From: a virus
Length of the DNA: 29,201 bases
Reading direction: 5' to 3' (one strand)
Virus record (IMG/VR): IMGVR_UViG_3300009104_001101
Location: 1-29,201 of that record
The notes beneath the pieces were generated by a model. It worked only from the letters and a program-made list of their open reading frames with translations, was not told the origin of the DNA and did no database searches. This document shows, piece after piece, positions 9,641 to 27,895 of the stretch. Position numbers and translations under genes: made by a program. The stretch's first letter is position 1; each line of letters opens with the position of its first letter.

Positions 9641-11665
9641 ATGAAAAAGACGGCCTTCAAATTGTCGGATAAGTTTATAGACGGGTACAAAAGAAAAAGA
9701 GCACCATTTGGGTTCAATGGTCTCGGTGAGTTAGTATATATGAGAACCTATTCAAGATTAAAAGAAGATGGAAAAAATGAAATGTGGTGGGAAACTGTTA
9801 GGCGTGTTGTTGAGGGAACTTACAATATGCAAAACAAATGGATTAACTCACACGAATTAGGATGGAATGCGTGGCAAGCTCAACGAAGTGCCCAAGAGAT
9901 GTATGATAGAATATTCAATATGAAATTCTTACCTCCTGGTCGTGGATTGTGGTCAATGGGAACACCTATTACAGAAGAAAAAGGTATTTATGCAGCACTT
10001 AATAATTGTGCTTTTGTATCAACACAAAATTTAAAAGAAGATTTAGCAAAACCATTTTGTTTTTTAATGGATGCGAGTATGTTAGGAGTAGGTGTAGGAT
10101 TTGACACAAAAGGAGCAGAACAATTTGTAATTAGGGGGCCAAAAGAAGATAGAGATGTTGATACATATAATATACCTGATACAAGAGAAGGTTGGGTTGA
10201 ATCTGTAAGGCGTTTATTAGATTCATATTTTCTTGGTGTAGCACCAGTTCAGTTCAATTATGATGAAATTAGAGCGGCTGGAGAGCCTATTAAGGGATTT
10301 GGTGGAGTATCATCAGGACCTGAACCATTGAAGGATATACACGAAGATATACGAGCTTGTTTAGATGAGAATGTAGGAGAACCAATATCAGTAACAACAA
10401 TTGTAGATATAATGAATCTGATTGGTAAGTGTGTTGTAGCTGGTAATGTTAGACGAACAGCCGAGATTGTATTTGGAGACCCACATTCAGAAGAATATTT
10501 AAATTTAAAAAATTATGAAAAAAATCCACATAGAGAAACTTATGGTTGGACATCAAATAATTCTATATTTGCAGAACTTGGTATGGATTATACAGAAGCT
10601 TCTGAAAGAATTACAGACAATGGTGAACCTGGTTTCGCGTGGTTAGATAATATGAGAGAATATTCTCGTATGAGAAATGGTAGAGATAATAAAGACCATA
10701 GAGTAGCTGGTGGTAATCCTTGTTTGGAACAATCATTAGAATCATATGAGTTGTGTTGTCTTGTAGAAACATTTCCAAGTAATCACGATTCATTAGATGA
10801 TTATTTGAAAACTTTAAAATATGCATATTTATATGCTAAAACGGTTACATTAGGAAAAACACATTGGGCAGAAACAAATCGTGTAATGCTTAGGAATAGA
10901 AGAATAGGTTGTTCAGTTAGTGGTATAGCTCAATTCGTATCAGCTCCTGGTGGTATTCACAAATTAAGAACTTGGTTAGAAGCTGGATACGACCACATTC
11001 AGGAATTGGATAAACAATATTCTGATTGGATGGCAATTCCTCGTAGTGTCAAGACTACATCAGTAAAACCAAGTGGAACAGTTTCTCTATTAGCTGGAGC
11101 AACTCCTGGACTACATTATCCAGAATCTAAATACTATATTAGAAGAATTAGACTATCAGTAAATTCACCACTATTAAAACCTTTAGAAAAAGCTGGATAC
11201 AAAATCGAACCGGCATTTGGTAGTGAAGATTCTACGGTTGTAGTAGAAGTTCCTGTTGATGTTGGTGAAGGTGTTAGAACTCTTAGTCAGGTTCCGATGT
11301 GGGAGCAGTTATCCTTAGCTGCATTTATGCAAAAGTATTGGGCAGATAATCAAGTTTCTTGTACGGTCACATTTGACCCAGAAACAGAAGGCCCTCAAAT
11401 ACCATATGCATTAAATTATTTCCAATATCAATTAAAAGGTATTTCTCTATTACCAAAAACAGAAATGGGAGCTTATAGACAAATGCCTTACGAGGAAATC
11501 ACACAAAAAGAATATGATAAAATGGTTAAAAAATTAGGTTTCTTATCATTCAGACAAGTTAAGGGTAATGAAGCAGAAGTTGAAAAATTCTGTAATAATG
11601 ATACCTGTGAAATTGATTTTGAAGAAATAAAAGAAACACAAGAAGAAAAAACAGAAGTTATATAA
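9641..11665 (+). CDS. nrdJ: Adenosylcobalamin-dependent ribonucleotide reductase, class II monomeric (674 aa)
   Basis: This enzyme reduces ribonucleotides to deoxyribonucleotides with adenosylcobalamin, needing no second subunit and no oxygen. It follows the Lactobacillus RTPR pattern: LPPGRGLWSMG, then NNCAFVS with C123 (redox pair), then GGNPCLEQSLESYELC. That block gives the thiyl Cys C361, catalytic E363 and redox C372 at exactly the RTPR spacing. C651 and C656 (CNNDTC) near the tail match the C-terminal pair that re-reduces the active site. It is somewhat shorter than RTPR (739). The start has AGGAGAG upstream. T4 uses class I NrdAB instead, so dNTP supply here depends on B12. It is followed directly by promoter P3. 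Confidence 0.95.
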   Translation: MKKTAFKLSDKFIDGYKRKRAPFGFNGLGELVYMRTYSRLKEDGKNEMWWETVRRVVEGTYNMQNKWINSHELGWNAWQAQRSAQEMYDRIFNMKFLPPGRGLWSMGTPITEEKGIYAALNNCAFVSTQNLKEDLAKPFCFLMDASMLGVGVGFDTKGAEQFVIRGPKEDRDVDTYNIPDTREGWVESVRRLLDSYFLGVAPVQFNYDEIRAAGEPIKGFGGVSSGPEPLKDIHEDIRACLDENVGEPISVTTIVDIMNLIGKCVVAGNVRRTAEIVFGDPHSEEYLNLKNYEKNPHRETYGWTSNNSIFAELGMDYTEASERITDNGEPGFAWLDNMREYSRMRNGRDNKDHRVAGGNPCLEQSLESYELCCLVETFPSNHDSLDDYLKTLKYAYLYAKTVTLGKTHWAETNRVMLRNRRIGCSVSGIAQFVSAPGGIHKLRTWLEAGYDHIQELDKQYSDWMAIPRSVKTTSVKPSGTVSLLAGATPGLHYPESKYYIRRIRLSVNSPLLKPLEKAGYKIEPAFGSEDSTVVVEVPVDVGEGVRTLSQVPMWEQLSLAAFMQKYWADNQVSCTVTFDPETEGPQIPYALNYFQYQLKGISLLPKTEMGAYRQMPYEEITQKEYDKMVKKLGFLSFRQVKGNEAEVEKFCNNDTCEIDFEEIKETQEEKTEVI

Positions 11666-11724: not shown

Positions 11725-13203
11725 ATGAACAAATTATATGAAAAATATGGCAATCATCCATTCTACGGGAGAAGAATCCTGCATGTTAATTCTCCTGTAA
11801 GGTGGAAAAGTAAAAAATATTTACATCATTTATGTGCAAATTATAAAGTTATGGATAAAACAGTTAATTGGTTACCAATGTGTCATCATTATGTTTTAGT
11901 TCCACCTCATAATACAATTCCAAATGATAGACCTAATGTTACTTTGATTCCATTTAATTATGCAGGAAGTGTACTATTTAATCGTGGTTGGTTTAATAGT
12001 AAGGAATTTTTAAATTCAGTAGATTTCAGTAAATTGGATATTGATTTTATATTCAATCATCAACCTGAACTGATGTATAATGTATTGAATGCTACAATGA
12101 CAGATAGATATGGTGGTTCAGCAGATAGTTTTATATTCTTTCATTGGGTTGATAGTCCACAATCAAAACCATCGGGTGATTTTCCAGATGGATTTATGCG
12201 TCAGTTAGAAGCTATGAATCTAGCTACTAAAACTTATTTTCATTGTGACGCTTCACTTGATTACTTAAAATCTAATTTTAAAAAGGAAAGACCAGTTCTT
12301 GGAATTAATGACAATTTCTGTAAAGAAAAAATAAGTAGTTTTCCACTATCAGCTGATGGATTTCCTGATTCAATGCCCTTTGAATTACCTGATAAAAAGA
12401 TTTTAGTATTTAATCATAGATGGGCTAAGACAACTGGTGTTGAAAAATTAGTTAGTTATACAAAAGACTTAGATGAGGATTGGTTGATTTGGATTACTGA
12501 TAGAAATGCAAGAAAACCAAAAGCAGGTAAACCAGCTCCTGAAGCTTTTAAAGACCACAAATGTGGTTTAAGAATTGAAGGATTGGAAAGAAGTCAATAT
12601 AGATATTTGATTGAGAATTGTTATGCTACATTATGTTTCGTAGACAAATATATGACTTGGAATTTATCTGTCCAAGATGGTATACATTTGGGAACACCAA
12701 CGATAGTTTATGACCATCCTGTAGAAAAGTATGTTCTTGGTGAGAATTATCCTTATATGTTTAAAAACAAAAAAGAGTTTGTTGAGATGTTGGATAAAGT
12801 TGATAATGACAGAGATACTTTTGATTGGACATTACCTGAACACGATAAAGCGTTTAAAGAAAATTTATTTAAAGATATACAAGAAGCTATTGATAATAAA
12901 CCAAGTCGTGATTGTGGTGACGGCCCTAAATGGTTATGGCATATCCTTCAAGGAAATAGTTACAAGAAAAATATTTTATATAATACTCATCCTAATTTAT
13001 ATCTAAGTAATGTTTGGGAGTGGATAAGATTGTATTGTATGGAGCGTGGTATTGTAGATGACCCATTAAGTAAATATACAAAACTTACTATTCCTGATGA
13101 TGAGGTTAGAGAAGCAATAGAAAAAGAATTAAATGGGTTAGATTTGAAAGAATCTAAAAAAGACCCTAAGTTTTCAGTATCAACAGAAAAATCATTTTGG
13201 TAA
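11725..13203 (+). CDS. GT-B-like glycosyltransferase, paralogue 1 (492 aa)
   Basis: The product resembles a GT-B-fold glycosyltransferase. The second half has KILVFNHRWAKTTG, typical of the start of the nucleotide-sugar-binding domain, and WNLSVQDGIHLGTPTIVYD followed by a stretch like YPYMFKNKKEFVEML, as in group 1 transferases. The protein at 19846 is clearly a paralogue, sharing GRR(I/V)LH, LPMCHHYV, FHWVD and WNLSVQDG. Acceptor and sugar are unknown; candidates are modified DNA bases or host/virion glycans. No base hydroxymethylase gene is visible here. It is the first gene after promoter P3 and is followed after 6 bases by gp43. Confidence 0.7.
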   Translation: MNKLYEKYGNHPFYGRRILHVNSPVRWKSKKYLHHLCANYKVMDKTVNWLPMCHHYVLVPPHNTIPNDRPNVTLIPFNYAGSVLFNRGWFNSKEFLNSVDFSKLDIDFIFNHQPELMYNVLNATMTDRYGGSADSFIFFHWVDSPQSKPSGDFPDGFMRQLEAMNLATKTYFHCDASLDYLKSNFKKERPVLGINDNFCKEKISSFPLSADGFPDSMPFELPDKKILVFNHRWAKTTGVEKLVSYTKDLDEDWLIWITDRNARKPKAGKPAPEAFKDHKCGLRIEGLERSQYRYLIENCYATLCFVDKYMTWNLSVQDGIHLGTPTIVYDHPVEKYVLGENYPYMFKNKKEFVEMLDKVDNDRDTFDWTLPEHDKAFKENLFKDIQEAIDNKPSRDCGDGPKWLWHILQGNSYKKNILYNTHPNLYLSNVWEWIRLYCMERGIVDDPLSKYTKLTIPDDEVREAIEKELNGLDLKESKKDPKFSVSTEKSFW

Positions 13204-13209
13204 AATAAT

Positions 13210-15735
13210 ATGTATCAGAACATTTATATTCAAAGAGAAAAAGGTCAGAGAGCAACTGTTCATCTATGGGATGACCAAAAAGGTTATTATAGTTTTCCAT
13301 ATAAGAATTATGCATATAAAAAAGATACAGGTGGAATGTATGTTTCTTTGTCTGGTGAAAAATTAAAAAAAGTAGCTCGTTGGGAAGATGAGGATTTGAA
13401 AAAAGGACTTATTTATGAGTCTGATGTTCCTATGGAGACACGAGTTCTAATTGATACATATGGGAGTATAGATGAGCCTTCCAAAGGAATATGTACAATG
13501 TTTTTTGATATTGAGGTTGAGGTTACTGATGGATTTCCTGACCCATTAAAAGCTGAGAATAAGATTACATCAATAGCATTATATGATTCAATAACAAAAC
13601 AATATACTGCATTGGTTTTAGACCCCGATGGTAAAGTTAATCCACCAACAGAAGAGGGTGTTAATATAGAATCATTTTATTCAGAAGAAGAACTATTACA
13701 AACTTTTTGTAGAAAATATCAAGAGATTAGACCACATATTATAACTGGTTGGAATAGTGATAAGTTTGATATTCCATATCTTTATAATAGATTAATTAGA
13801 GTACTTGGTTTTGAATTTGCAAATACACTTTCACAACTTGGTAAAGTACGATTTAATGAGAGACAAGAGCGTTATAAAATAGCTGGAGTATCTTCACTTG
13901 ACTATTTGAGACTATATAAGAATTTTACATTTAAAGAACAAGCTTCATATCGTTTAGATGCAATTGGTGAGGTTGAAGTTGGTATGAAAAAAATTGAATA
14001 TGATGGAAGTCTTATGGATTTATATGACGATGATATTAATAAGTTTGTTGAGTATAATATTCGTGATGTAAAGATTGTTGTAGCTCTTGATGAGAAGCTT
14101 AAGATGATTGAGTTGGTTCGTGGTTTATCTCATATGTGTCATATTCCATATGAGGAAATTTATTTCTCTTCACGATATTTAGAAGGTGCTATTCTAACAC
14201 ACCTACGAAAGATTGAAGTTGTAGCTCCAAACAAACCATTAAGAAAAAAGGGTGAAGAGATTGAATATGAAAAGTTTAGTGGAGCATATGTTAAAGACCC
14301 AAAAGCTGGTAGACACGAATGGGTTTATGACTTGGATGTAACATCTATGTATCCGAGTATTATTATGAGTCTCAATATTTCGCCTGAAACAAAGGTTGGT
14401 CGTTTAGAGGGTTGGGATGCGAAAGAATTTTTAGATAAAGATTTACAAAAAACTTATACTCTTTGGTTTAATGACAAAGAGTTAGGAAAACACACAGCTT
14501 CTGAAATTAGAAGTTTATTAGAAAAGAACAAAATATCGATAGCTTCGAATGGTGTAATGTATAACACGGAAAGACCTGGATTGATGCCTACGCTATTAGA
14601 TACTTGGTTTAATGCTCGTGTTGAATTTAGAAAGCTTGCTAAAGAAGCGGCTGATAGAGGAGATGATGAGAAGTATGAGTATTTCAATCGAAGACAATAC
14701 ATACAAAAAGTGGTATTAAATTCACTTTATGGTGTATTGGGATTATCGGTGTTCAGATTCTATGACTTGGATAATGCAGAAGCTACGACATTGACTGGTC
14801 AACATTTTATCAAATTTTCTCAACAGATGTCTAATCTCTATTACAATAAGAAATTAGGAACTACTGATGAGGACTATTGTATTTATATTGATACAGATTC
14901 GTTATTTTATCCCTCAATACCAATAATAGAACATAAATACAAAGACTTTGATAAAATGGATGACGAGTTTATGTCAGAGAAGACTATTGAAGTAGCTGGT
15001 GAACTTCAAGATTTCTTAAACAAATCATATGACAGATATGCTAAGATGTTTTTGAATCTTGATGAGCATAGATTTAATATCAAGCAAGAGGTTGTAGCAA
15101 AGAGTGGAGTGTGGATTACAAAAAAACGATATGGGCAATGGATTATTAGGGATGCAGGAGTGGTCGTTAATAAGCTTGATATTAAAGGATTGGATATTAT
15201 TAGGTCAAACTTTCCAGAAGCATTTAGAGACTATATGAAAGAGTTCTTAATGGATATTCTGAAAAATGAACCAAAGGATGCGATTGATAAACGATATATG
15301 GATTTTAAATCCGATTTAACTAATTTACCAGTTACTACAATAGCTCAACCAACAAGTGTTAAGAACATATCAAAGTATACGGATAAAGAAGGTAGTAGAT
15401 TCAATAGAGCTATGAAAGGAACACCAGTGCATGTTAAGTCTGCACTGAATTATAATGATTTCTTGGAACATAATAATTTAGAAAAGAAACACGAATCAAT
15501 AGCTAATGGTTCAAAAATTAAATGGGTATATTTGAAACAAAATCCATATGGAATGCATACTATGGGTTTCAAGGGTTATGATGACCCAACAGAAGTTATG
15601 GATTATTTAGCAAAGTATATTGATACTGATAAAATGTTCAAAGGAGCTTTGGAAAAGAAAGTTGATATGTTTTATCAAGCTATGAAATGGTCACAACCAG
15701 TTGATGTGACAAAAACTTTAGACAGATTTTTTTAA
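13210..15735 (+). CDS. 43: DNA polymerase gp43, family B (841 aa)
   Basis: This is the replicative polymerase with proofreading exonuclease. The exonuclease site includes D100 and E102 in FFDIEVEV, and ITGWNSDKFDIPYL is exo motif II. Polymerase motif A is YDLDVTSMYPSIIMSLN (around 374), motif B is KVVLNSLYGVLGL, and motif C is YIDTDSLF (D561, D563). All catalytic acids are present, and the length is close to T4 gp43 (898). The C terminus ends TLDRFF, a plausible clamp-binding tail like those by which T4-type polymerases hold gp45. The clamp gene follows 28 bases later. No intein or homing endonuclease interrupts the gene. Confidence 0.97.
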   Translation: MYQNIYIQREKGQRATVHLWDDQKGYYSFPYKNYAYKKDTGGMYVSLSGEKLKKVARWEDEDLKKGLIYESDVPMETRVLIDTYGSIDEPSKGICTMFFDIEVEVTDGFPDPLKAENKITSIALYDSITKQYTALVLDPDGKVNPPTEEGVNIESFYSEEELLQTFCRKYQEIRPHIITGWNSDKFDIPYLYNRLIRVLGFEFANTLSQLGKVRFNERQERYKIAGVSSLDYLRLYKNFTFKEQASYRLDAIGEVEVGMKKIEYDGSLMDLYDDDINKFVEYNIRDVKIVVALDEKLKMIELVRGLSHMCHIPYEEIYFSSRYLEGAILTHLRKIEVVAPNKPLRKKGEEIEYEKFSGAYVKDPKAGRHEWVYDLDVTSMYPSIIMSLNISPETKVGRLEGWDAKEFLDKDLQKTYTLWFNDKELGKHTASEIRSLLEKNKISIASNGVMYNTERPGLMPTLLDTWFNARVEFRKLAKEAADRGDDEKYEYFNRRQYIQKVVLNSLYGVLGLSVFRFYDLDNAEATTLTGQHFIKFSQQMSNLYYNKKLGTTDEDYCIYIDTDSLFYPSIPIIEHKYKDFDKMDDEFMSEKTIEVAGELQDFLNKSYDRYAKMFLNLDEHRFNIKQEVVAKSGVWITKKRYGQWIIRDAGVVVNKLDIKGLDIIRSNFPEAFRDYMKEFLMDILKNEPKDAIDKRYMDFKSDLTNLPVTTIAQPTSVKNISKYTDKEGSRFNRAMKGTPVHVKSALNYNDFLEHNNLEKKHESIANGSKIKWVYLKQNPYGMHTMGFKGYDDPTEVMDYLAKYIDTDKMFKGALEKKVDMFYQAMKWSQPVDVTKTLDRFF

Positions 15736-15763: not shown

Positions 15764-16480
15764 ATGGCAGTAAAAAATAATTCACTTGGAAGATTTATTA
15801 GTAAATATCACCTTGAAAGTGCGGTAGCATCTTCTAAGTGGAAATTGAACAATGAAACACTTTCCGCACGATTTATGACGGAAGATAGGACTTTACTTGG
15901 TGAACTTAAACTAAAGAATTTCAAATGTGATTCTATAGATGGTGAGACATTAGGTATTTATAATACAGAGCAGTTAGTTAAATTGTTAGGTGTTTTGGAT
16001 GATGATGTTGAGATAAAATATAATTTTCCTTATCTACATATTCAAGATTCAAAATCTAAAGTATCTTATGTATTAAGTGATTTATCTATAATACCAGATG
16101 CACCAGCTATGAAAGTACAACCAACTTTTGAAACAGAACTTGAGATGGATATGAATTTTAGAAATAAATTTGTAAAAGGTAAGGGTGCTTTAGCAGATGT
16201 TGAAACTTTCACATTGGTAAAAAATGGTTCAGCGGATACACTTAACGCAGTGATTGGTCACTCATCCATTGCTACAAATAATTGTACAATACCTGTTAAA
16301 ACAAATAATCCTGATGTAGGGTTAGTTAGTTTTAATGCTAAATACTTAAAATCTATATTCACAGCTAATAGAGATGCTAAAGAATGTACTATGAAAGTTA
16401 GTTCTGATGGTTTAGCAAGATTAAATTTTAAAGCTGATGATTTTGAAGTTGAGTACAATATGGTAGCAGTTCAAAATTAG
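15764..16480 (+). CDS. 45: Sliding clamp gp45 (238 aa)
   Basis: This is the T4-type trimeric processivity clamp. The call rests on length (T4 gp45 is 228), on position between gp43 and gp44/62, and on clamp-like content: two repeated lobes of mixed strands, acidic overall, with segments such as LSDLSIIPDAPAM in the linker area and SFNAKYLKSIF in the second lobe. The start follows AGGAGATAAC. In T4, gp45 also links replication to late transcription, so it may serve that role here. A 53-aa membrane peptide starts 8 bases after its stop. Confidence 0.88.
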   Translation: MAVKNNSLGRFISKYHLESAVASSKWKLNNETLSARFMTEDRTLLGELKLKNFKCDSIDGETLGIYNTEQLVKLLGVLDDDVEIKYNFPYLHIQDSKSKVSYVLSDLSIIPDAPAMKVQPTFETELEMDMNFRNKFVKGKGALADVETFTLVKNGSADTLNAVIGHSSIATNNCTIPVKTNNPDVGLVSFNAKYLKSIFTANRDAKECTMKVSSDGLARLNFKADDFEVEYNMVAVQN

Positions 16481-16488
16481 GAGACATT

Positions 16489-16650
16489 ATGGAAAATACA
16501 AGAATGGTAGATGAGACTGGAACTAAATGGAAATATATTCTATTGGTAGGTGCAGGTTCTTACTTTGCACATTCACTATGGGGTTTATTTACAGAAGTTA
16601 TGACTCATCGATTTAAACATTGGAGAAGAGGAGAGGGATGGAACGACTAA
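16489..16650 (+). CDS. 53-aa single-membrane-span peptide between gp45 and gp44
   Basis: This short ORF starts at an ATG preceded by AGGAGACATT and ends inside the first codons of gp44, overlapping by 13 bases. The peptide has a polar N terminus, a hydrophobic stretch from about 16 to 38 (KYILLVGAGSYFAHSLWGLF), and a basic C terminus (RFKHWRRGEG), consistent with one membrane span. The gp44 ribosome site lies inside it, so it would help couple clamp and clamp-loader translation. I recognise no family. Confidence 0.65.
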   Translation: MENTRMVDETGTKWKYILLVGAGSYFAHSLWGLFTEVMTHRFKHWRRGEGWND

Positions 16651-17561
16651 ATTCACTATGGGTTGAGAAATATCGCCCACAAAATCTTGATACCTATATT
16701 GGTAATGATTTTATTAAAGATAAGGTTAAGGTTTATCTTGAATCTGGTGATGTTCCACATCTATTATTACACGGACAAGCTGGTACTGGTAAGACAACAT
16801 TAGCTAAATTAATCGTTAATAATATTGATTGTGATTTTCTCTATGTAAATGCATCTGATGAGAATAGTGTTGATGCGGTTAGAGATAAGATTAAAAACTT
16901 TGCTAGTACTGCAGGTTTTAGACCTTTTAAGATTATTATCCTTGATGAGGCTGATTTCCTTACACCAAATGCTCAAGCAGCTCTTCGTAATATAATGGAG
17001 ACATTTTCAAAACATTGTCGATTCATTCTTACTTGTAATTTTGTTGAAAGAATCATAGACCCAATTCAATCAAGATGTCAGACATTCCAAGTTATACCAC
17101 CAGATAGAAAACAAGTAGCTGCACATTTATGTTCTGTGTTAGACCAAGAGAGTGTATTATATAAGTTAGAAGATGTAGCTCTTCTTGTTAATGCGGGTTA
17201 TCCTGATATTCGTAGAGTTATCAATGCTGGTCAGAGACAATCAATAAGTGGTAAACTTGTTATTGATAAACAATCAGAAGTATTGAATGATTATAAGGTA
17301 AAGTTACTTGAAATATTAAAAAGTGGTAGAGATAAGAAAACTTCATTTACAGAGATTAGACAATTGTTAGCTGATAGTAAGGTAAAGGACTATTCAGATG
17401 CTTTTAGATTGTTGTATGATAATCTTGATGACTTTGCCGGAGGAAATAAAGCTGTAAGTATATTAACTTTAGCCGAAGGTCAGTTTCAAGATGCTCAAGT
17501 TGTTGATAAAGAAATTAATTTTATGGCAATGATGATTAAATTATTGGGTGAGATTAAATGA
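16638..17561 (+). CDS. 44: Clamp loader large subunit gp44 (307 aa)
   Basis: This AAA+ ATPase opens and loads the gp45 clamp with gp62. A longer frame from a TTG at 16620 exists, but the ATG at 16638 has a strong AGAGGAGAGGG site and gives the usual clamp-loader beginning (LWVEKYRPQNLDTYIG). Walker A is GQAGTGKT (46-53), Walker B is ILDEAD (101-106), and the SRC motif with its arginine finger is at 145-147. The length is close to T4 gp44 (319). The stop overlaps the gp62 start in ATGA fashion, which keeps subunit ratios coupled. Confidence 0.96.
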   Translation: MERLNSLWVEKYRPQNLDTYIGNDFIKDKVKVYLESGDVPHLLLHGQAGTGKTTLAKLIVNNIDCDFLYVNASDENSVDAVRDKIKNFASTAGFRPFKIIILDEADFLTPNAQAALRNIMETFSKHCRFILTCNFVERIIDPIQSRCQTFQVIPPDRKQVAAHLCSVLDQESVLYKLEDVALLVNAGYPDIRRVINAGQRQSISGKLVIDKQSEVLNDYKVKLLEILKSGRDKKTSFTEIRQLLADSKVKDYSDAFRLLYDNLDDFAGGNKAVSILTLAEGQFQDAQVVDKEINFMAMMIKLLGEIK

Positions 17562-17971
17562 CATTATTCGATTGGGTAAATGAAGTAAAAACTAAAAAAA
17601 GAAAATGGGATTCTTTTTCAGATTCAGATAAGAAGACATTTAGTCCATATATGATTCATAGATTTCTCTCAATGAATCAGAACTATGTAGAACTTGTAAA
17701 TGACTTTCAAAAGTATTGGACACTTGAATCAAGAGATGTTTATAAGTTCTATTGTGATGTTCTTCCAAATAAGCGTTCATTTGACAAATATATAAAAGCT
17801 AAAAAAGTAGAAAATTATCCAAGTTGGGTAATTGATATACTTTGCAAGTATTTTAATGAGTCGAAATCTCACATAGAGGAATATTTATATCTGATAGAAA
17901 AATCTGAGTTACAAACCATATTAGAAATGTATGGTACAGAGCCCAAAGAAATAAAAAAACTTAAATTATAG
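17558..17971 (+). CDS. 62: Clamp loader small subunit gp62 (137 aa)
   Basis: Position and size identify this as the gp62 partner of gp44: it overlaps the gp44 stop by 4 bases (ATGA), as in T4-type operons, and is a small mostly helical protein (MTLFDWVNEVKTKKRKWDSF at the start). It is shorter than T4 gp62 (187). Sequence motifs are weak because this subunit lacks an ATPase site, so the call depends mainly on context. The T4 translational repressor gene regA, expected next to it, is absent; glutamine synthetase follows instead. Confidence 0.85.
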   Translation: MTLFDWVNEVKTKKRKWDSFSDSDKKTFSPYMIHRFLSMNQNYVELVNDFQKYWTLESRDVYKFYCDVLPNKRSFDKYIKAKKVENYPSWVIDILCKYFNESKSHIEEYLYLIEKSELQTILEMYGTEPKEIKKLKL

Positions 17972-17980
17972 GAGAATATA

Positions 17981-18979
17981 ATGCTCACAAAGTTAGAGTA
18001 CATATGGTTAGACGGAACGGAGCCTACAACTCAGTTGCGTAGTAAAACAAAAGTAGTAGAGGACTTTAAACAAAATATTCAAGATTGTCCTGTATGGGGA
18101 TTTGATGGTTCGTCAACAAATCAAGCAGAAGGAAAAGACTCTGATTGTGTTTTGAAACCAGTTAAGTTGTATGAGAATCCAATGGAAAAACACGATTCAT
18201 ATTTGGTATTATGTGAGGTTTGGGATGTAGATGGAAATCCACATTCTACAAATAAAAGATTCAATTTAGATGATATTCAAGCTAAATATTCAAAAGAAGA
18301 AGTATGGGTTGGTATAGAGCAAGAATATACTCTGTTTAAAGATGGAAGACCTTTGGGTTGGCCAATGCACGGAACACCTCCACCACAAGGCGATTACTAT
18401 TGTGGTAGAAATGAGGGTGAGTGGTTAGCTCGTAAACATATGGAGTTATGTATAAGTACCGGTCTTAAAATAAGTGGTATTAATTCAGAGGTAATGCTTG
18501 GTCAATGGGAATATCAAATAGGTGCAGATGACCCGATTACGATTTCAGATGATTTATGGATAGCTAGATGGTTATTAGAAAAGGTTTGTGCGAAATATGA
18601 AGTTACAGTTACACTTGACCCAAAACCTGTTGAAGGTGATTGGAATGGTGCTGGTGCACATACAAACTTTTCTACTAAAGCTATGAGAGAAGATGGTGGT
18701 GATATGGTTATTCATAAAGGTATAAAAAAATTAGAAGCACGACATAATGAACATATTCAAGTTTATGGTTATGGTAATGAGAGAAGACTTACTGGAATGC
18801 ACGAAACTTGTCCTATAAATATGTTTCATTGGGGTGTATCTGATAGAGGAGCGTCAGTACGAGTTCCTTGGCAAGTAAGTAATGATGGTAAGGGATATTT
18901 AGAAGACAGGAGGCCATCGGCTAATTGTGACCCTTATGTCGTATGTCATAAACTAATAGACACAATATGTGGAGAGTAA
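17981..18979 (+). CDS. glnII: Glutamine synthetase, eukaryotic-type GSII (332 aa)
   Basis: This enzyme makes glutamine from glutamate, ammonia and ATP. It is the short GSII (GlnII) type, typical of eukaryotes and some bacteria, not the ~470-aa GSI. Metal and substrate residues are intact: E113/E115 in GIEQEYTLF, E170/E177 in INSEVMLGQWEYQ, H227 in WNGAGAHTNFST, RR at 268-269 in GNERRLTGMHE, and E308/R310 in LEDRRPSANCDPY. One change is notable: the usual RIPR reads VRVPW, putting Trp at 297. It follows gp62 by 9 bases with an AGGAGAATAT site, so it belongs to the replisome operon. Composition matches the neighbours, which argues against very recent transfer. It may supply glutamine or assimilate ammonia during infection. 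Confidence 0.95.
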   Translation: MLTKLEYIWLDGTEPTTQLRSKTKVVEDFKQNIQDCPVWGFDGSSTNQAEGKDSDCVLKPVKLYENPMEKHDSYLVLCEVWDVDGNPHSTNKRFNLDDIQAKYSKEEVWVGIEQEYTLFKDGRPLGWPMHGTPPPQGDYYCGRNEGEWLARKHMELCISTGLKISGINSEVMLGQWEYQIGADDPITISDDLWIARWLLEKVCAKYEVTVTLDPKPVEGDWNGAGAHTNFSTKAMREDGGDMVIHKGIKKLEARHNEHIQVYGYGNERRLTGMHETCPINMFHWGVSDRGASVRVPWQVSNDGKGYLEDRRPSANCDPYVVCHKLIDTICGE

Positions 18980-18980
18980 A

Positions 18981-19826
18981 ATGAAAAATATGTATGAATA
19001 TAATGAAGTTGTAAAGAAGATGAGATTCTTCTTTCAAGAAGCAAAGGGTTTTGTCGAAGTACCTGCACAATCACGACAATCGATATTAGCTGCGTGTGAA
19101 GACCCAGCAACAATATCACAATATATCTTTAGTGGAGTTAATTGGCCACTACCTCAAACAGGTCAAATGTGGCTAGAAAGAGATTTATTGGATAATCCTG
19201 ATGCAAAGGGAGTATTCTGTATCACAACAAGTTACAGAAATGAACCAAACCCGGTGCCAGGGCGTCACGATAAGATATTTCCAATGTTTGAATTTGAGTC
19301 ACACGGTGATATGGAAGATATGGTCAAATTAGAAACAGAACTATTGAATCACTTAGGATTTAATAATCGTTATGCTGATAAACAAGATTATGCAAGAATA
19401 ACATACGATGATGCTTCTGATAAATATGGAGTTTCTGAATTAGATTATGCAGAAGAAGAAGCACTTTGTAAGGACTTTGATAACTGCACATTCGTAACAG
19501 ACTTTCCATTAAGAACACATCCATTTTGGAATATGAAGCATAAAGGTAATGGAATATATTCTAAAGTTGATGTTATAATGCACGGAATGGAAACAATAGG
19601 TTCAGCTGAAAGAGCAACAGATGTCTATGAGATGAGAGAGCAGTTTCATAACATTTCAGATGGTGAGTATGCAAATCTTCTGTTCAATCACTTTGGTCAA
19701 AAAAGAGTTGAAGATGAGTTAGACGAGTATTTATCACTTGATATGTTTGAACGCTTTGGTGGTGGAATTGGAGTTACTCGTATGGTAGCTGCTATGAAAG
19801 CTGAAGGGCTCCTGCTAGATAGATAA
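18981..19826 (+). CDS. Class II aaRS-like ligase, AsnRS/asparagine-synthetase type (281 aa)
   Basis: The fold is the catalytic core of a class II aminoacyl-tRNA synthetase of the Asp/Asn group. Motif 2 is TSYRNEPNPVPGRHDKIFPM (83-102, with R86, E88 and RH), and motif 3 is GGGIGVTRM (260-268). A VIMHGMETIGSAERATD block matches the usual acid-rich strand before motif 3. There is no anticodon-binding domain. That is the architecture of archaeal AsnRS-derived asparagine synthetase and of E. coli-type AsnA, which adenylate aspartate and add ammonia. Placement next to glutamine synthetase supports an amide-forming role. It could also aminoacylate another target. A GTG at 18969 is possible, but the ATG at 18981 with GGAGAG 5 bases upstream is preferred. 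Confidence 0.82.
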   Translation: MKNMYEYNEVVKKMRFFFQEAKGFVEVPAQSRQSILAACEDPATISQYIFSGVNWPLPQTGQMWLERDLLDNPDAKGVFCITTSYRNEPNPVPGRHDKIFPMFEFESHGDMEDMVKLETELLNHLGFNNRYADKQDYARITYDDASDKYGVSELDYAEEEALCKDFDNCTFVTDFPLRTHPFWNMKHKGNGIYSKVDVIMHGMETIGSAERATDVYEMREQFHNISDGEYANLLFNHFGQKRVEDELDEYLSLDMFERFGGGIGVTRMVAAMKAEGLLLDR

Positions 19827-19845: not shown

Positions 19846-21255
19846 ATGAAAAGTCATAAATTATACGGGAGACGAGTATTACATTTCTTGTCTCCTGTTA
19901 GATTCGATAGAAATGTTTTCAAACATTCATCAGATTCAAATTATAAGGTTGTAGAAAAAACAATAAAACATCTACCGATGTGTCATCACTATGTTGTAGT
20001 TCCTGAGAATCACATTATAGAAGATAATAGGTCAAATGTTACATTGATAAAATATCCTTATCCTCAGAACGCGGTTAGTAACAGAGCAACATTTAATTTT
20101 CAAGCATTTAGAAGGTTGATGAATATGAAGCAGATGGATATTGATTTTGTATTTACACATCAGCCTGAATTATTATTTAATATTATGACTGGTCTTATGG
20201 ATGAGAGATATGGTGAGATAGTTAATAGATTCTTATTCTTCCATTGGGTAGATTGTCCACAGAGTAGAGGTTCATCAGCTATTCCACATAGTTATATGAA
20301 ACAATTGGGTTCTATTAATCAATGTAATAAAGTATTTTTCCATACAGATATTGCGAGTGAGTATTTTGAAAAGAATTATACTAAAGAATGTGCCACTACT
20401 TTAAATTTAGATTATATAAAATCAAAGTCAAGTTTCTTTCCTTTAGCCGCAGATGATTTTCCAGAACCACAACCAGTTGATTTACCAGATAAAAAAATTA
20501 TTGTATTTAATCATCGTTGGAATGTATCTACTGGTTGGAAAAGAATGGTTAAGTATACAGAAGATTTGAATGATGATTATATGATATGGTGCACCGACCC
20601 AAAAGCACCTAAAGAGTATGCAGGAAAAGGATTACCTTTTTCGCAATATGGATATTTATTAAAAGAGAGTCTATGTAGTGTATGTTTTGTTGATAGCTAT
20701 GCTACTTGGAATCTATCAGTGCAAGATGGTTTAAAATTTGATAAACCAGTTTTATGTTATAAACACCCTGTAATGACAAAGGTTCTTGGAGAGGATTATC
20801 CATTTTTCTTCAAGACAAAAGAAGAATTTTTAAATCTTTTAAAAGTTGTTGAAAAAAATGCAGGAAAAGAGTTCAAGTGGGAACTACCAGACCACGAGAA
20901 CAATTTTAAAAATAATTTAATCAATAGTATGGAAGAATGTATTCTAACAGATATTAATTGTCCAAAGGATACGATGAATTGGATTTATTGTGTATTGAAT
21001 GGTTATGAATTTAAAAAAGATATAACGAATCAGGTTCAACCAAATCTAATGTTAAATTCAGTTTGGCAATATATAAGAAGATGGTTATTAGCTAATGGAG
21101 TTCAAGATGACCCAAATTGTCAATTTACAAGATATTCTATACCAGAAGATAAAAGAGAAGAGTTTGAAAAAATGACTCAATCAGTAGATATGGTATTGAA
21201 ACCAAAAACTACAAAACAAACAATAATAAATAATAAAAATCACGGATTTTTCTAA
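19846..21255 (+). CDS. GT-B-like glycosyltransferase, paralogue 2 (469 aa)
   Basis: This is a paralogue of the protein at 11725. Shared blocks include YGRRVLHFLSPVR, LPMCHHYVVVP, FLFFHWVD, KIIVFNHRWNVSTGW, ATWNLSVQDG and VLGEDYPFFFKTKEEF. It is 23 residues shorter, with a shorter stretch between the NHRW block and the WNLSVQDG block. Conservation is highest in the C-terminal nucleotide-sugar-type domain. Donor and acceptor are unknown. It follows the ligase by 19 bases with an AAAAGGTTATAT leader, and the nuclease gene starts one base after its stop. The paralogue pair flanks the polymerase/clamp/glutamine synthetase block. Confidence 0.7.
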   Translation: MKSHKLYGRRVLHFLSPVRFDRNVFKHSSDSNYKVVEKTIKHLPMCHHYVVVPENHIIEDNRSNVTLIKYPYPQNAVSNRATFNFQAFRRLMNMKQMDIDFVFTHQPELLFNIMTGLMDERYGEIVNRFLFFHWVDCPQSRGSSAIPHSYMKQLGSINQCNKVFFHTDIASEYFEKNYTKECATTLNLDYIKSKSSFFPLAADDFPEPQPVDLPDKKIIVFNHRWNVSTGWKRMVKYTEDLNDDYMIWCTDPKAPKEYAGKGLPFSQYGYLLKESLCSVCFVDSYATWNLSVQDGLKFDKPVLCYKHPVMTKVLGEDYPFFFKTKEEFLNLLKVVEKNAGKEFKWELPDHENNFKNNLINSMEECILTDINCPKDTMNWIYCVLNGYEFKKDITNQVQPNLMLNSVWQYIRRWLLANGVQDDPNCQFTRYSIPEDKREEFEKMTQSVDMVLKPKTTKQTIINNKNHGFF

Positions 21256-24780: not shown

Positions 24781-26178
24781 ATGAAATTAGCAAGAAGTAA
24801 GAAAAAAATACTACTCTTATCAGACGATTTACGAATGCATTCTGGTATCGGAACAATGTCAAGATTTTTTGTGATGGGAACATTGGATAAATACGATTGG
24901 GTTCAGATAGGTGGAGCTATCACACATCCAGATAAAGGAAAAATAGCAGATTTATCTCAAAGTATGAAAGAAGAAACAGGTGTTTCTGATGCATATTTAA
25001 AAATTTATGCTACTGATGGTTATGGTGATTCCAATATTCTAAGAGAAGTTATGGATATAGAAAAACCAGATGCTATTCTACACTTTACAGACCCAAGATT
25101 CTGGGGATGGTTATATCAGATGGAGCACGAGTTAAGACAAACAACACCACTTATGTATTATACTATTTGGGATGACTTACCTTATCCAAGATGGAATGAA
25201 CCATTTTATGAATCTTGTGATTTGTTGATGTGTATTTCAAAACAAACATATGGTATAGTTAATAATGTAGTAAGAAAGTTTCCAAAAAAAGATTGGCAGA
25301 TAACATATGTTCCTCACGGAATACACGAAGATAAATATTTTCCAATAGATTCATTTCATTCAGATTGGGATGAATTTAAAAAATTCAAAAAAACTCTCGT
25401 TGGAGATTCAGATTTTGTATTCTATTGGACTAATAGAAATATTCGTAGAAAATCACCTGGAGATTTAATTTTAGCTTATAAATTATTTTGTGATTCATTA
25501 CCAAAAGAAAAAGCTGAAAAATGTTGTTTATTAATGCATACTGCAGGAGTTGACCAAAATGGAACAGATTTACCAGCAGTTATTAGAGAGATTTGTCCAG
25601 ATTATAAAGTTGTTATTGATGAAGCTAAGGTTGATGACAAACATATGAATTTCTTATATAATATTGGTGATGTAACGGTTAATATAGCATCAAATGAGGG
25701 ATTTGGTCTATCAGGTGCAGAATCACTAATGAGTGGAACACCAATTATTAACAATATAACTGGTGGACTACAAGACCATTGTGGTTTCAAGTTAAAGGGT
25801 AAATATTTAACTGCAGATGATTATGTAGAAATAGGTTCATTACACGATGATAGAAAATGGGCAAACAATCCTGATTTAACTTGGGGTGAGTGGGTAAAAC
25901 CAGTATGGCCATCCAATCGTTCAATGGTTGGTTCGCCTCCAACACCATATATTTTTGATGACAGATGTAGATTTGATGATGTAGCTGAAGCGATGAAATA
26001 TTGGTATGATAAGACGCCTGAAGAGAGAGTCGATGCAGGAGCGTTGGGAAGAGAATTTGTTCTGGACCCTGAAACTGGAATGTCAACTAAAAATATGTCT
26101 AATAATTTTATCAAAGATATGGACTCTTGTTTTGAAAAATTTGAGAAAAGAGATAGATTCACATTATATGAGGTATAA
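24781..26178 (+). CDS. GT4-like glycosyltransferase (465 aa)
   Basis: The protein shows a GT-B fold of the GT4 group. The N-terminal domain begins KKILLLSDDLRMHSGIGTMS, with the glycine-rich acceptor loop. The C-terminal domain has NEGFGLSGAESLMSGTPII (near 305-325), holding the conserved E-x7-E that binds the sugar nucleotide, followed by GLQDH. It probably transfers a sugar from an activated donor to an unknown acceptor in the cytoplasm; there is no signal peptide. It leads a run of three glycosyltransferases with small genes between them. The next gene begins directly after its stop. Confidence 0.87.
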   Translation: MKLARSKKKILLLSDDLRMHSGIGTMSRFFVMGTLDKYDWVQIGGAITHPDKGKIADLSQSMKEETGVSDAYLKIYATDGYGDSNILREVMDIEKPDAILHFTDPRFWGWLYQMEHELRQTTPLMYYTIWDDLPYPRWNEPFYESCDLLMCISKQTYGIVNNVVRKFPKKDWQITYVPHGIHEDKYFPIDSFHSDWDEFKKFKKTLVGDSDFVFYWTNRNIRRKSPGDLILAYKLFCDSLPKEKAEKCCLLMHTAGVDQNGTDLPAVIREICPDYKVVIDEAKVDDKHMNFLYNIGDVTVNIASNEGFGLSGAESLMSGTPIINNITGGLQDHCGFKLKGKYLTADDYVEIGSLHDDRKWANNPDLTWGEWVKPVWPSNRSMVGSPPTPYIFDDRCRFDDVAEAMKYWYDKTPEERVDAGALGREFVLDPETGMSTKNMSNNFIKDMDSCFEKFEKRDRFTLYEV

Positions 26179-26529
26179 ATGAAAACAAAAAATATAAAAG
26201 ATATTACTTACAAACAAGTAGAGATAGATAAAAAACATATGGTTGTTGTATATTTTGATTATCAATATCCAATTTCAGAAGAAGATGTTACTCAGGTAAC
26301 TCAAACTATATCTAATATTATAAACGAAGATAGAAGATTTATAAATAGATGTATATTTCTACCAAAGGGATTTGATATGTATAATTTAACAGAAGATGAT
26401 TTCATTAGTATTTGGAGAAGTAAAGTTGATGATAAAATAGTAGATGAGGTTATTGAGAAGACAAAAAAAGACGAAAATCAATTAGAATTATTTGATAATG
26501 ATGTGGAGGTAATAGAAGAAAATGAGTAA
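26179..26529 (+). CDS. Protein of unknown function with a QLELF motif (116 aa)
   Basis: No family is recognised. The first 70 residues look like a small alpha/beta domain (MVVVYFDYQYPISEEDV, then NRCIFLPKGFDMYNL). The acidic C-terminal tail contains QLELF at 101-105 (26479-26493), which fits the bacterial sliding-clamp-binding pattern QLxLF. The gene starts right after the glycosyltransferase stop and overlaps the next gene by 8 bases, so all are likely translated together. Confidence 0.7.
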   Translation: MKTKNIKDITYKQVEIDKKHMVVVYFDYQYPISEEDVTQVTQTISNIINEDRRFINRCIFLPKGFDMYNLTEDDFISIWRSKVDDKIVDEVIEKTKKDENQLELFDNDVEVIEENE

Positions 26530-27895
26530 ACCAATTATGTTAATACAAGCTCCTGTAGCTACAAGAAGTGGTTATGGGAATCATTCAAGAGATTTAATTG
26601 AATCTTTGATTCATATGGATAAGTTTGATATAAAAATATCAAGTCTAAGGTGGGGAGATTGTCCTATGAATGCTTTAGATGAAAATAATTCTGTTCACCA
26701 AGAGATATTAAAAAGAATAATAGGCCCTCAGAATCCACTAACTCAACAACCAGATGTGAATGTTGAAATTAGAGTTCCAAATGAATTTCAACCAGTGGGT
26801 AAATATAATATTGGTATAACTGCTGGTATGGAAACAACTTTAGTATCGCCTGAATGGATAGAGGGTTGTAATCGTATGGATTTAATCATAGTTCCATCAC
26901 AACATTCTAAACGAACATTTATACAATCATCTTGGGATAAAATGCAAGATATAAATGGTCAAAAACAAAAAGTTGGTGAGATGAGAGTTGAAAAACCAAT
27001 CGAAGTTTTATTTGAGGGTGCGGATTCAAATATTTATAAAAAAACAAAAGACATTCCAGAAACTATAAAACCTACACTTGATAGTATAAAAGAAAATTTC
27101 TGTTTCTTATATGTTGGTCATTGGTTAAAAGGTGATTTAGGTCAAGATAGAAAAGATACTGGTATGTTGGTTAAAGTATTTTTAGAGACATTTAAGAATA
27201 AAGAAAATCCACCTGCACTTGTTATGAAAACAAGTGGAGCTTCGTTTTCAATAATGGATAGAGATGAACTATTTAGGAAAATTGAAAGTATAAAATCCTC
27301 AATAGAAGGTGCAGATAAGTTACCACCAATCTATATTCTACACGGAGATTTATCAGATGAAGAAATGAATGGATTATATAATCATCCCAAGATGAAAGTT
27401 TGTCCTACATTTACAAAAGGAGAGGGATTTGGAAGACCATTATTGGAAGCTACTTTCGCAGATAAATTAGTTGTAGCGTCTAATTGGAGTGGTCAATGTG
27501 ATTTCTTAGATTCTTCTTTATCAGTAATGTTACCTGGAAAATTAAATAATGTACACGAATCTTCTGCTTGGGATAAAGTTATACTTAAAGAATCCCAATG
27601 GTTTACAGTAGATTATGGTTACGCATCAAAAACATTATTAGATGTATGGAAAAATTATAAAAATTATTCAAGTAGAGCTAAGAAACAAGGTTCTCAGAAT
27701 AGATTGAAATTTACTTTAGATAATATGAAAACTCAATTCACAGAAATTGTAAATAAATATATTCCAGAATTTCCTAAACAAGTAGATATAAAATTACCAA
27801 AATTATCAAAACTTGGAAAGACAGATACAAGTACTGGAATAAAATTACCTAAATTAAATAAACCAAAATTATCTAAGGAGATAGTCAATGAGTGA
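26522..27895 (+). CDS. GT-B group 1 glycosyltransferase with KLPKL tail (457 aa)
   Basis: The N terminus MSKPIMLIQAPVATRSGYGN carries the acceptor-side glycine loop seen in group 1 transferases. The second domain has FLYVGHWLKGD and KGEGFGRPLLEATFADKLVV, with the E-x7-E donor-binding motif, then WSGQCDFLD. The last ~35 residues are a lysine-rich linker with repeated IKLPKL units, outside the catalytic fold, and may bind a partner or membrane. Sugar and acceptor are unknown. Its stop overlaps the start of the next gene by 8 bases. The start lies 14 bases after GGAGG with a nearer GAAGA, a somewhat relaxed site. Confidence 0.87.
   Translation: MSKPIMLIQAPVATRSGYGNHSRDLIESLIHMDKFDIKISSLRWGDCPMNALDENNSVHQEILKRIIGPQNPLTQQPDVNVEIRVPNEFQPVGKYNIGITAGMETTLVSPEWIEGCNRMDLIIVPSQHSKRTFIQSSWDKMQDINGQKQKVGEMRVEKPIEVLFEGADSNIYKKTKDIPETIKPTLDSIKENFCFLYVGHWLKGDLGQDRKDTGMLVKVFLETFKNKENPPALVMKTSGASFSIMDRDELFRKIESIKSSIEGADKLPPIYILHGDLSDEEMNGLYNHPKMKVCPTFTKGEGFGRPLLEATFADKLVVASNWSGQCDFLDSSLSVMLPGKLNNVHESSAWDKVILKESQWFTVDYGYASKTLLDVWKNYKNYSSRAKKQGSQNRLKFTLDNMKTQFTEIVNKYIPEFPKQVDIKLPKLSKLGKTDTSTGIKLPKLNKPKLSKEIVNE

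Follow-up and report, generated by a model that had tools for sequence, protein, structure and literature searches.

A glutamine synthetase and an asparaginyl-tRNA synthetase-like ligase lie directly behind the clamp-loader genes of a phage, and the question arises as to what such a pair of genes contributes there. The locus forms part of the virus record IMGVR_UViG_3300009104_001101, of which the 29,201 bases analyzed are referred to here as the window. A sequence-only reading had proposed that both enzymes assimilate ammonia, producing glutamine and asparagine during infection. Family scans identified a T4-like replication block in the window, composed of gp32-, RecA/uvsX-, DnaB/gp41-, gp43-, gp44-, gp45-, and gp62-like genes together with a B12-type ribonucleotide reductase (RNR); the PHROG label for the gp44 and gp62 matches is "clamp loader of DNA polymerase." The type II glutamine synthetase (GSII) and the stand-alone aminoacyl-tRNA synthetase (aaRS)-like core (ASNL) follow (Table 1), and the matches of these two proteins, gp44, and gp62 are far beyond chance. 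The ORF coordinates agree with the spacing that had been claimed, namely, 9 bases between gp62 and GSII and a single base between GSII and the ATG of ASNL at 18981; an alternative GTG at 18969 would give a protein of 285 aa. The paralogous ORFs 11725-13203 and 19846-21255 flank the polymerase/clamp/GSII/ASNL block on both sides, neither having a Pfam or PHROG match, and glycosyltransferase-like genes (phrog_2170) are located at 24781-26178 and 26522-27895.

Table 1. Features of the window discussed in the text
Feature	Position	Strand	Match or evidence
B12-type ribonucleotide reductase (nucleotide-supply context)	9641..11665	+	PF17975 (E 9e-44), PF21995
Family B DNA polymerase (gp43-like)	13210..15735	+	phrog_262 (E 2e-189)
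gp45-like sliding clamp	15764..16480	+	phrog_223 (E 3e-8)
gp44-like clamp-loader AAA+ subunit	16620..17561	+	phrog_168 (E 4.5e-83)
gp62-like clamp-loader subunit, directly 5' of GSII	17558..17971	+	phrog_225 (E 1e-16)
GSII, type II glutamine synthetase, 332 aa	17981..18979	+	NCBIfam NF041605, 4bax
ASNL, stand-alone class IIb aaRS-like core, 281 aa	18981..19826	+	PF00152, phrog_29758, AlphaFold model
ORF directly 3' of ASNL	19846..21255	+	No Pfam/PHROG match; 42% identical to window ORF 11725-13203

Judged from its sequence, GSII looks like an ordinary type II glutamine synthetase. Its residues 1-331 were aligned with positions 1-330 of the 333 of the NCBIfam GlnII profile (NF041605) at an E value of 1e-143, and the score of 478.5 bits is just under the 500-bit equivalog cut-off. 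The closest solved structure, 4bax, was matched with 417 bits over residues 3-330. The protein is thus full length, as had been proposed, and its catalytic residues presumably lie within these well-aligned segments. The glutamine half of the earlier interpretation is therefore supported by a complete and normal-looking enzyme. Relatives with 58-80% identity adjoin RNR or gp43 in contigs of T4-like phages, and 59 of 80 viral GSII loci also contain B12-type RNR or gp43, so that GSII can be counted among the regular genes of these phages. Glutamine synthetase of viral origin has been reported from viromes (review PMC9083009).

The two genes do not form a unit, since, within the flanks taken, ASNL was found in only 4 of the 80 GSII loci (L083, L086, L087, and L089) and GSII in none of 80 phage ASNL loci. 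Co-occurrence is thus largely lacking, which speaks against the sequence-only reading, and on these counts a conserved ammonia-assimilating pair was rejected. GSII was equally absent from 80 loci that surround cellular ASNL genes. Nor was a conserved protein neighbor of phage ASNL seen; even the most frequent cluster reached only 22 of 89 loci, where its distance from ASNL varied and either strand could encode it.

Members of the ASNL family occur on at least 595 viral stretches. The window protein matched PHROG 29758 with an E value of 7e-95, and its only Pfam match was tRNA-synt_2 (D, K and N; PF00152) with 4e-20. The top PDB matches of its AlphaFold model (pLDDT 92.4) are AsnRS and AspRS, with Z scores of 26-28; AsnRS fits best (Z 27.6), followed by AspRS, archaeal asparagine synthetase A (Z 24.4), and others, and matches so close in score to a predicted structure do not decide the function. 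The 281 residues match tRNA-synt_2 alone and lack an N-terminal OB-fold anticodon-binding domain, and the model covers the catalytic part of the AsnRS chains. Residues R86, E88, H96, E204, R211, and R267 are identical in 138 phage and cellular ASNL rows, a count from which one divergent row was left out. R86 and R267 are the motif 2 and motif 3 arginines of class II enzymes, and a profile alignment with E. coli AsnS, weak though it is (probability 25%), matches up the residues of the class II motifs. Fold, motif arginines, and the missing anticodon domain hence bear out the description of ASNL as a free-standing class II aaRS-like core. Its assignment to the asparagine synthetase type was not supported, as ASNL remained far below the curated NCBIfam cut-offs for asparagine synthetase A, AsnRS, AspRS, LysRS, and EpmA (the AS-AR profile PRK06462 gave 14.1 bits where the cut-off is 322), and its cellular relatives often adjoin pyrimidine genes.

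These cellular relatives amount to 141 encoding stretches when one genome is scanned per species, and the record titles name Patescibacteria, DPANN archaea, Dependentiae, Chlamydiota, Bacteroidota, Myxococcota, Gammaproteobacteria metagenome-assembled genomes (MAGs), and others as sources. The window copy shares a sequence family with them, being 64% identical to L504, the best cellular match, and 55% to L529, but only 53% to the copy of phage P-SSM2. The analysis of cellular loci covered the best 80 of the 141 stretches. Recurrent clusters around ASNL were recognized as PyrE/PyrF and PyrD, and a PyrD-, PyrE-, or PyrF-like gene was present on the same locus of about 10 kb (within about 5 kb) in 26 of the 80, a count made with queries drawn from those same loci. 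With three pyr genes placed at random in 1 Mb, such a count would have a chance of about 4e-20, a rough figure that ignores kinship between loci. In 22 of the 80 loci, the pyr gene was the ORF (of at least 120 aa) nearest to ASNL, and in 17 of these it was on the same strand. ASNL and PyrF are separated by 1 bp in L529, whereas the order in L504-L507 is ASNL, PyrE, and another gene of the PyrE/PyrF cluster. Of 21 pyr-like neighbors compared with NCBIfam, 16 scored above a PyrD, PyrE, or PyrF cut-off, and these originate from Gammaproteobacteria, Rhodospirillaceae, Myxococcota, Chlamydiota, Dependentiae, Bacteroidota, and a midichloriacean. The remaining five fell below the cut-off but matched the right families (PyrD-like in L511, L522, L537, and L573; PyrE-like in L577); among those below cut-off are the Patescibacteria examples and the PyrD-like proteins of Chlamydiota and Dependentiae. 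On a quick tree of 139 rows, the pyr label changed 14 times, with at least 8 changes forced by well-supported branches, and the linkage is present in several separate lineages. Counting against a role in pyrimidine synthesis, 54 of the 80 cellular loci have no pyr gene. PyrD, PyrE, and PyrF were also absent from the surroundings of phage ASNL (0 of 89 loci) and from the names returned by the family scans of the window, and the sole pyr match among 166 phage loci was on a GSII locus. In Patescibacteria (L525, L527, L533, L539, L541, L557, L569, L577, and L581), ASNL is often accompanied by genes that were named DnaX-like and Dus-like by eye, and several of the loci contain tRNA-Gln.

The early steps of the pathway were searched for in 50 ASNL genomes from the 80 loci, 26 of them pyr-linked and 24 not, and in 14 control genomes. 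Among the 50 genomes, matches above cut-off were obtained for PyrB in 2, for CarB in 2, and for PyrC (PyrC_multi) in 1, and one further genome had a CarB fragment at 949 bits; the 26 pyr-linked genomes account for no PyrB, no PyrC, and two CarB plus one fragment. All 14 controls gave matches each time, which were above cut-off in 14 (PyrB), 11 (PyrC), and 14 (CarB) genomes. When matches of any score are considered, PyrB was found in 6 of the 50 genomes, 4 of these being below cut-off. In two of these four, the pyr-linked L531 and L519, a below-cut-off carbamoyltransferase is encoded directly beside CarB or the CarB fragment, so that a divergent PyrB is possible there. PyrC was matched at any score in 15 of the 50, among them eight pyr-linked Bacteroidota whose PyrC-like proteins are long but score below cut-off (in one case as fragments). 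CarB was matched in 35 of the 50, mostly by short segments that we take to be other ATP-grasp enzymes. The Coatesbacteria genome L526 (CP070755) possesses two adjacent PyrB-PyrC pairs above cut-off and ASNL, but no CarB above cut-off. For Pasteurella atlantica, the one genome covered by the search for class II PyrC, 2.0 of the 2.30 Mb of the chromosome were searched. This part gave no match to E. coli CarB, PyrB, PyrC, AsnA, or AsnB at an E value of 1e-5, and PyrE was not found in it either. CarA gave only a weak match of 98 residues, the weak PyrB-family match turned out to be an ornithine carbamoyltransferase with 59% to ArgI, and AsnS is present. Many of the ASNL genomes are MAGs, and several are likely to belong to parasites or symbionts, for which auxotrophy may be explanation enough.

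We read ASNL as an enzyme of the pyrimidine pathway rather than as an asparagine synthetase. Because the gene recurs next to PyrD, PyrE, or PyrF where carbamoyl-phosphate synthetase, PyrB, and PyrC were not found, its product should supply dihydroorotate for PyrD, and since its fold adenylates the carboxylates of aspartate-like substrates, an ATP-driven ring closure is plausible. From the gene identities, the neighborhoods, the missing hits, and the common active-site residues described above, we infer a substrate, a product, and a role in infection. ASNL would most likely use ATP to adenylate the carboxylate of an aspartate- or asparagine-type substrate and would yield dihydroorotate without carbamoyl-phosphate synthetase, PyrB, or PyrC. 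The ureido carbon could, on paper, be carried by N-carboxy-asparagine, N-carbamoylaspartate, or a urea adduct. PyrD, PyrE, and PyrF, which for the phage would be those of the host, would then complete UMP. The entry step of pyrimidine synthesis is feedback-regulated, and ASNL would bypass it. GSII, in turn, would convert glutamate and ammonia into glutamine, and the two phage enzymes, whose genes are grouped with those for RNR and the replisome, would channel nitrogen into nucleotides while DNA is being made. That GSII provides glutamine and ASNL a dihydroorotate entry to pyrimidines, both feeding the phage nucleotide supply alongside the replisome, is the account that we tentatively prefer, with slightly less than even confidence. 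A side suggestion of the sequence-only reading, in which the pair serves nucleotide synthesis, agrees better with the findings than its headline of an ammonia-assimilating pair. More doubtful is the general form of the proposal, in which the work of carbamoyl-phosphate synthetase, aspartate carbamoyltransferase, and dihydroorotase is taken over by an AsnRS-like enzyme; this would provide a carbamoyl-phosphate-independent entry that is scattered among bacteria and archaea and serves many phages as a one-gene bypass, perhaps with the help of a dedicated tRNA in some of them.

That ASNL is an ammonia-dependent asparagine synthetase of the AS-AR/AsnA type, the pair producing glutamine and asparagine, appears unlikely. 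The AsnRS/AS-AR fold without an anticodon domain, including the Z score of 24.4 with archaeal asparagine synthetase A, would suit such an activity, as would the position next to GSII in the window, the weak matches of 18 of 58 ASNL members to PRK06462.1-5, and the presence in P. atlantica of AsnS without an AsnA or AsnB homologue in the part searched. However, ASNL scores under the asparagine synthetase cut-offs and E. coli AsnA barely aligns with it, and an asparagine synthetase leaves both the adjacency to PyrD, PyrE, and PyrF and the missing CarB, PyrB, and PyrC unaccounted for.

A function of ASNL as a small aminoacyl-tRNA synthetase is quite improbable; its substrate would be a phage-encoded tRNA that has a long variable arm and G73 and whose anticodon is GUU or, in some cases, GUC. 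Such a tRNA was found 3' of ASNL on the same strand in 12 of 89 phage loci, near-duplicates included, at distances of about -2 to 1046 bp; ten have a GUU anticodon with the loop CTGTTTA (counting L008, which was left untyped by ARAGORN), and L083 and L021 have GUC. Furthermore, a search by nothing but two tRNA patterns yielded 13 contigs, 12 of which encode ASNL in whole or in part, L384 having only its last 27 codons; 7 of those 12 were already ASNL records, and of the remaining 6 tRNA-pattern contigs, 5 have ASNL. This link to GUU tRNAs is not accounted for by a pyrimidine function. Nevertheless, no tRNA was found in the window, none of this kind was found in 77 of the 89 phage loci, a single one of 80 cellular loci (L583) has one, and P. 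atlantica shows only ordinary tRNA-Asn and tRNA-Asp in the part searched. ASNL genes with and without the tRNA are intermingled in the tree of 139 rows. In addition, the sister family of GUC tRNAs, which is far more widespread, has ASNL on only 2 of 57 stretches, by which ASNL was rejected as an obligatory partner of the GUC version, while the GUU version is kept as a rival.

The GUC tRNAs with long variable arms (L691-L764 and L400; 57 of 75 stretches) are 88-162 nt long, possess G73, and are followed in 25 of 57 cases by an ORF family with a median of 733 aa that is terminase-like by eye. In the members of 146-162 nt (L083 10796-10943, L711, L733, L743, and L747), the variable arms have an internal segment in common (GATAAAC-like ... 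GGTTGACCACC-like ... GCTAAC), which gives the arm the look of a structured domain. Phages were also found to encode tRNA-like RNAs (L260-L339, e.g., L272, L285, L303, and L306; L217 and L218) with a constant acceptor AGTCAGG/CCTGACT, a D-arm, and a T-arm. These RNAs mostly have no recognizable anticodon arm, their middle is hypervariable, and some records contain several copies. A 24-base scan located at least 154 matches on at least 120 stretches, and a fitting 5' acceptor was present in 135 among the matches listed. ARAGORN called none of these RNAs in the small loci L197-L203 and L208, and Rfam weakly calls some of them tRNA. An apparent link of ASNL to the anticodon-less RNAs was rejected, as ASNL was present in 2 of 39 carrying records and equally in 2 of 39 controls with ordinary tRNA-Lys, both sets being the records of at least 40 kb from lists of 80.

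Least probable is a role of ASNL as a substitute for PyrC only, in which N-carbamoylaspartate taken up from host or prey would be closed to dihydroorotate at the expense of ATP: the same neighborhoods and missing hits would fit, as would the parasitic or predatory life of some carriers, and asparagine synthetase A offers a precedent in that it activates a beta-carboxylate, but an importer would be required, and there is little reason for a phage to carry the gene if its host has PyrB and PyrC.

None of the titles and abstracts in the literature searched assigns a function to ASNL or describes a nonstandard route to dihydroorotate. The main interest lies outside the window, in an unnamed and uncharacterized aaRS-like family that is linked to pyrimidine genes and may represent an unrecognized way to make the building blocks of DNA and RNA. 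If ASNL makes dihydroorotate, the pathway known from textbooks has a second, hitherto unknown entrance, which would serve organisms that otherwise pass for pyrimidine auxotrophs as well as phages with rapid DNA synthesis, and the aminoacyl-tRNA synthetase fold would have a new job. Even if only asparagine is made, an unnamed family with at least 595 viral and 141 cellular stretches gains a testable role.

In comparison with known systems, GSII shares with GlnII (NF041605; 4bax) the full-length match and differs from it in being phage-borne and in scoring just below the cut-off. The "tRNA ligase" (T4-GC 194) of the Prochlorococcus phages P-SSM2 and P-SSM7, and also of P-SSM5, belongs to the ASNL family (phrog_29758; 51-54% identical), but these copies are followed by tRNA-Asn and have no GSII within 10-14 kb on either side. 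T4-GC 194 is listed in a table of PMC3037559 that states no function for it. With EpmA/GenX, the EF-P lysine ligase, ASNL has in common that both are stand-alone class IIb cores (Z 23.5 to 3a5y), whereas its scores are 22-27 bits against cut-offs of 264-287. Archaeal asparagine synthetase A (PDB 3p8t/3rex) has the same stand-alone core, fold, and size, with a Z score of about 24, but is 17-18% identical to ASNL. AsnRS (class IIb; PDB 8h53, 2xti, and 1x54) has the same catalytic-core fold, with Z scores of 26-28 and an rmsd of 2.1-2.9 over 248-256 residues. ASNL differs from it by the lack of the N-terminal anticodon-binding domain, by an identity of about 22%, by scores of 22-28 bits against asnS cut-offs of 343-414, and by the pyrimidine genes that many of its cellular members adjoin.
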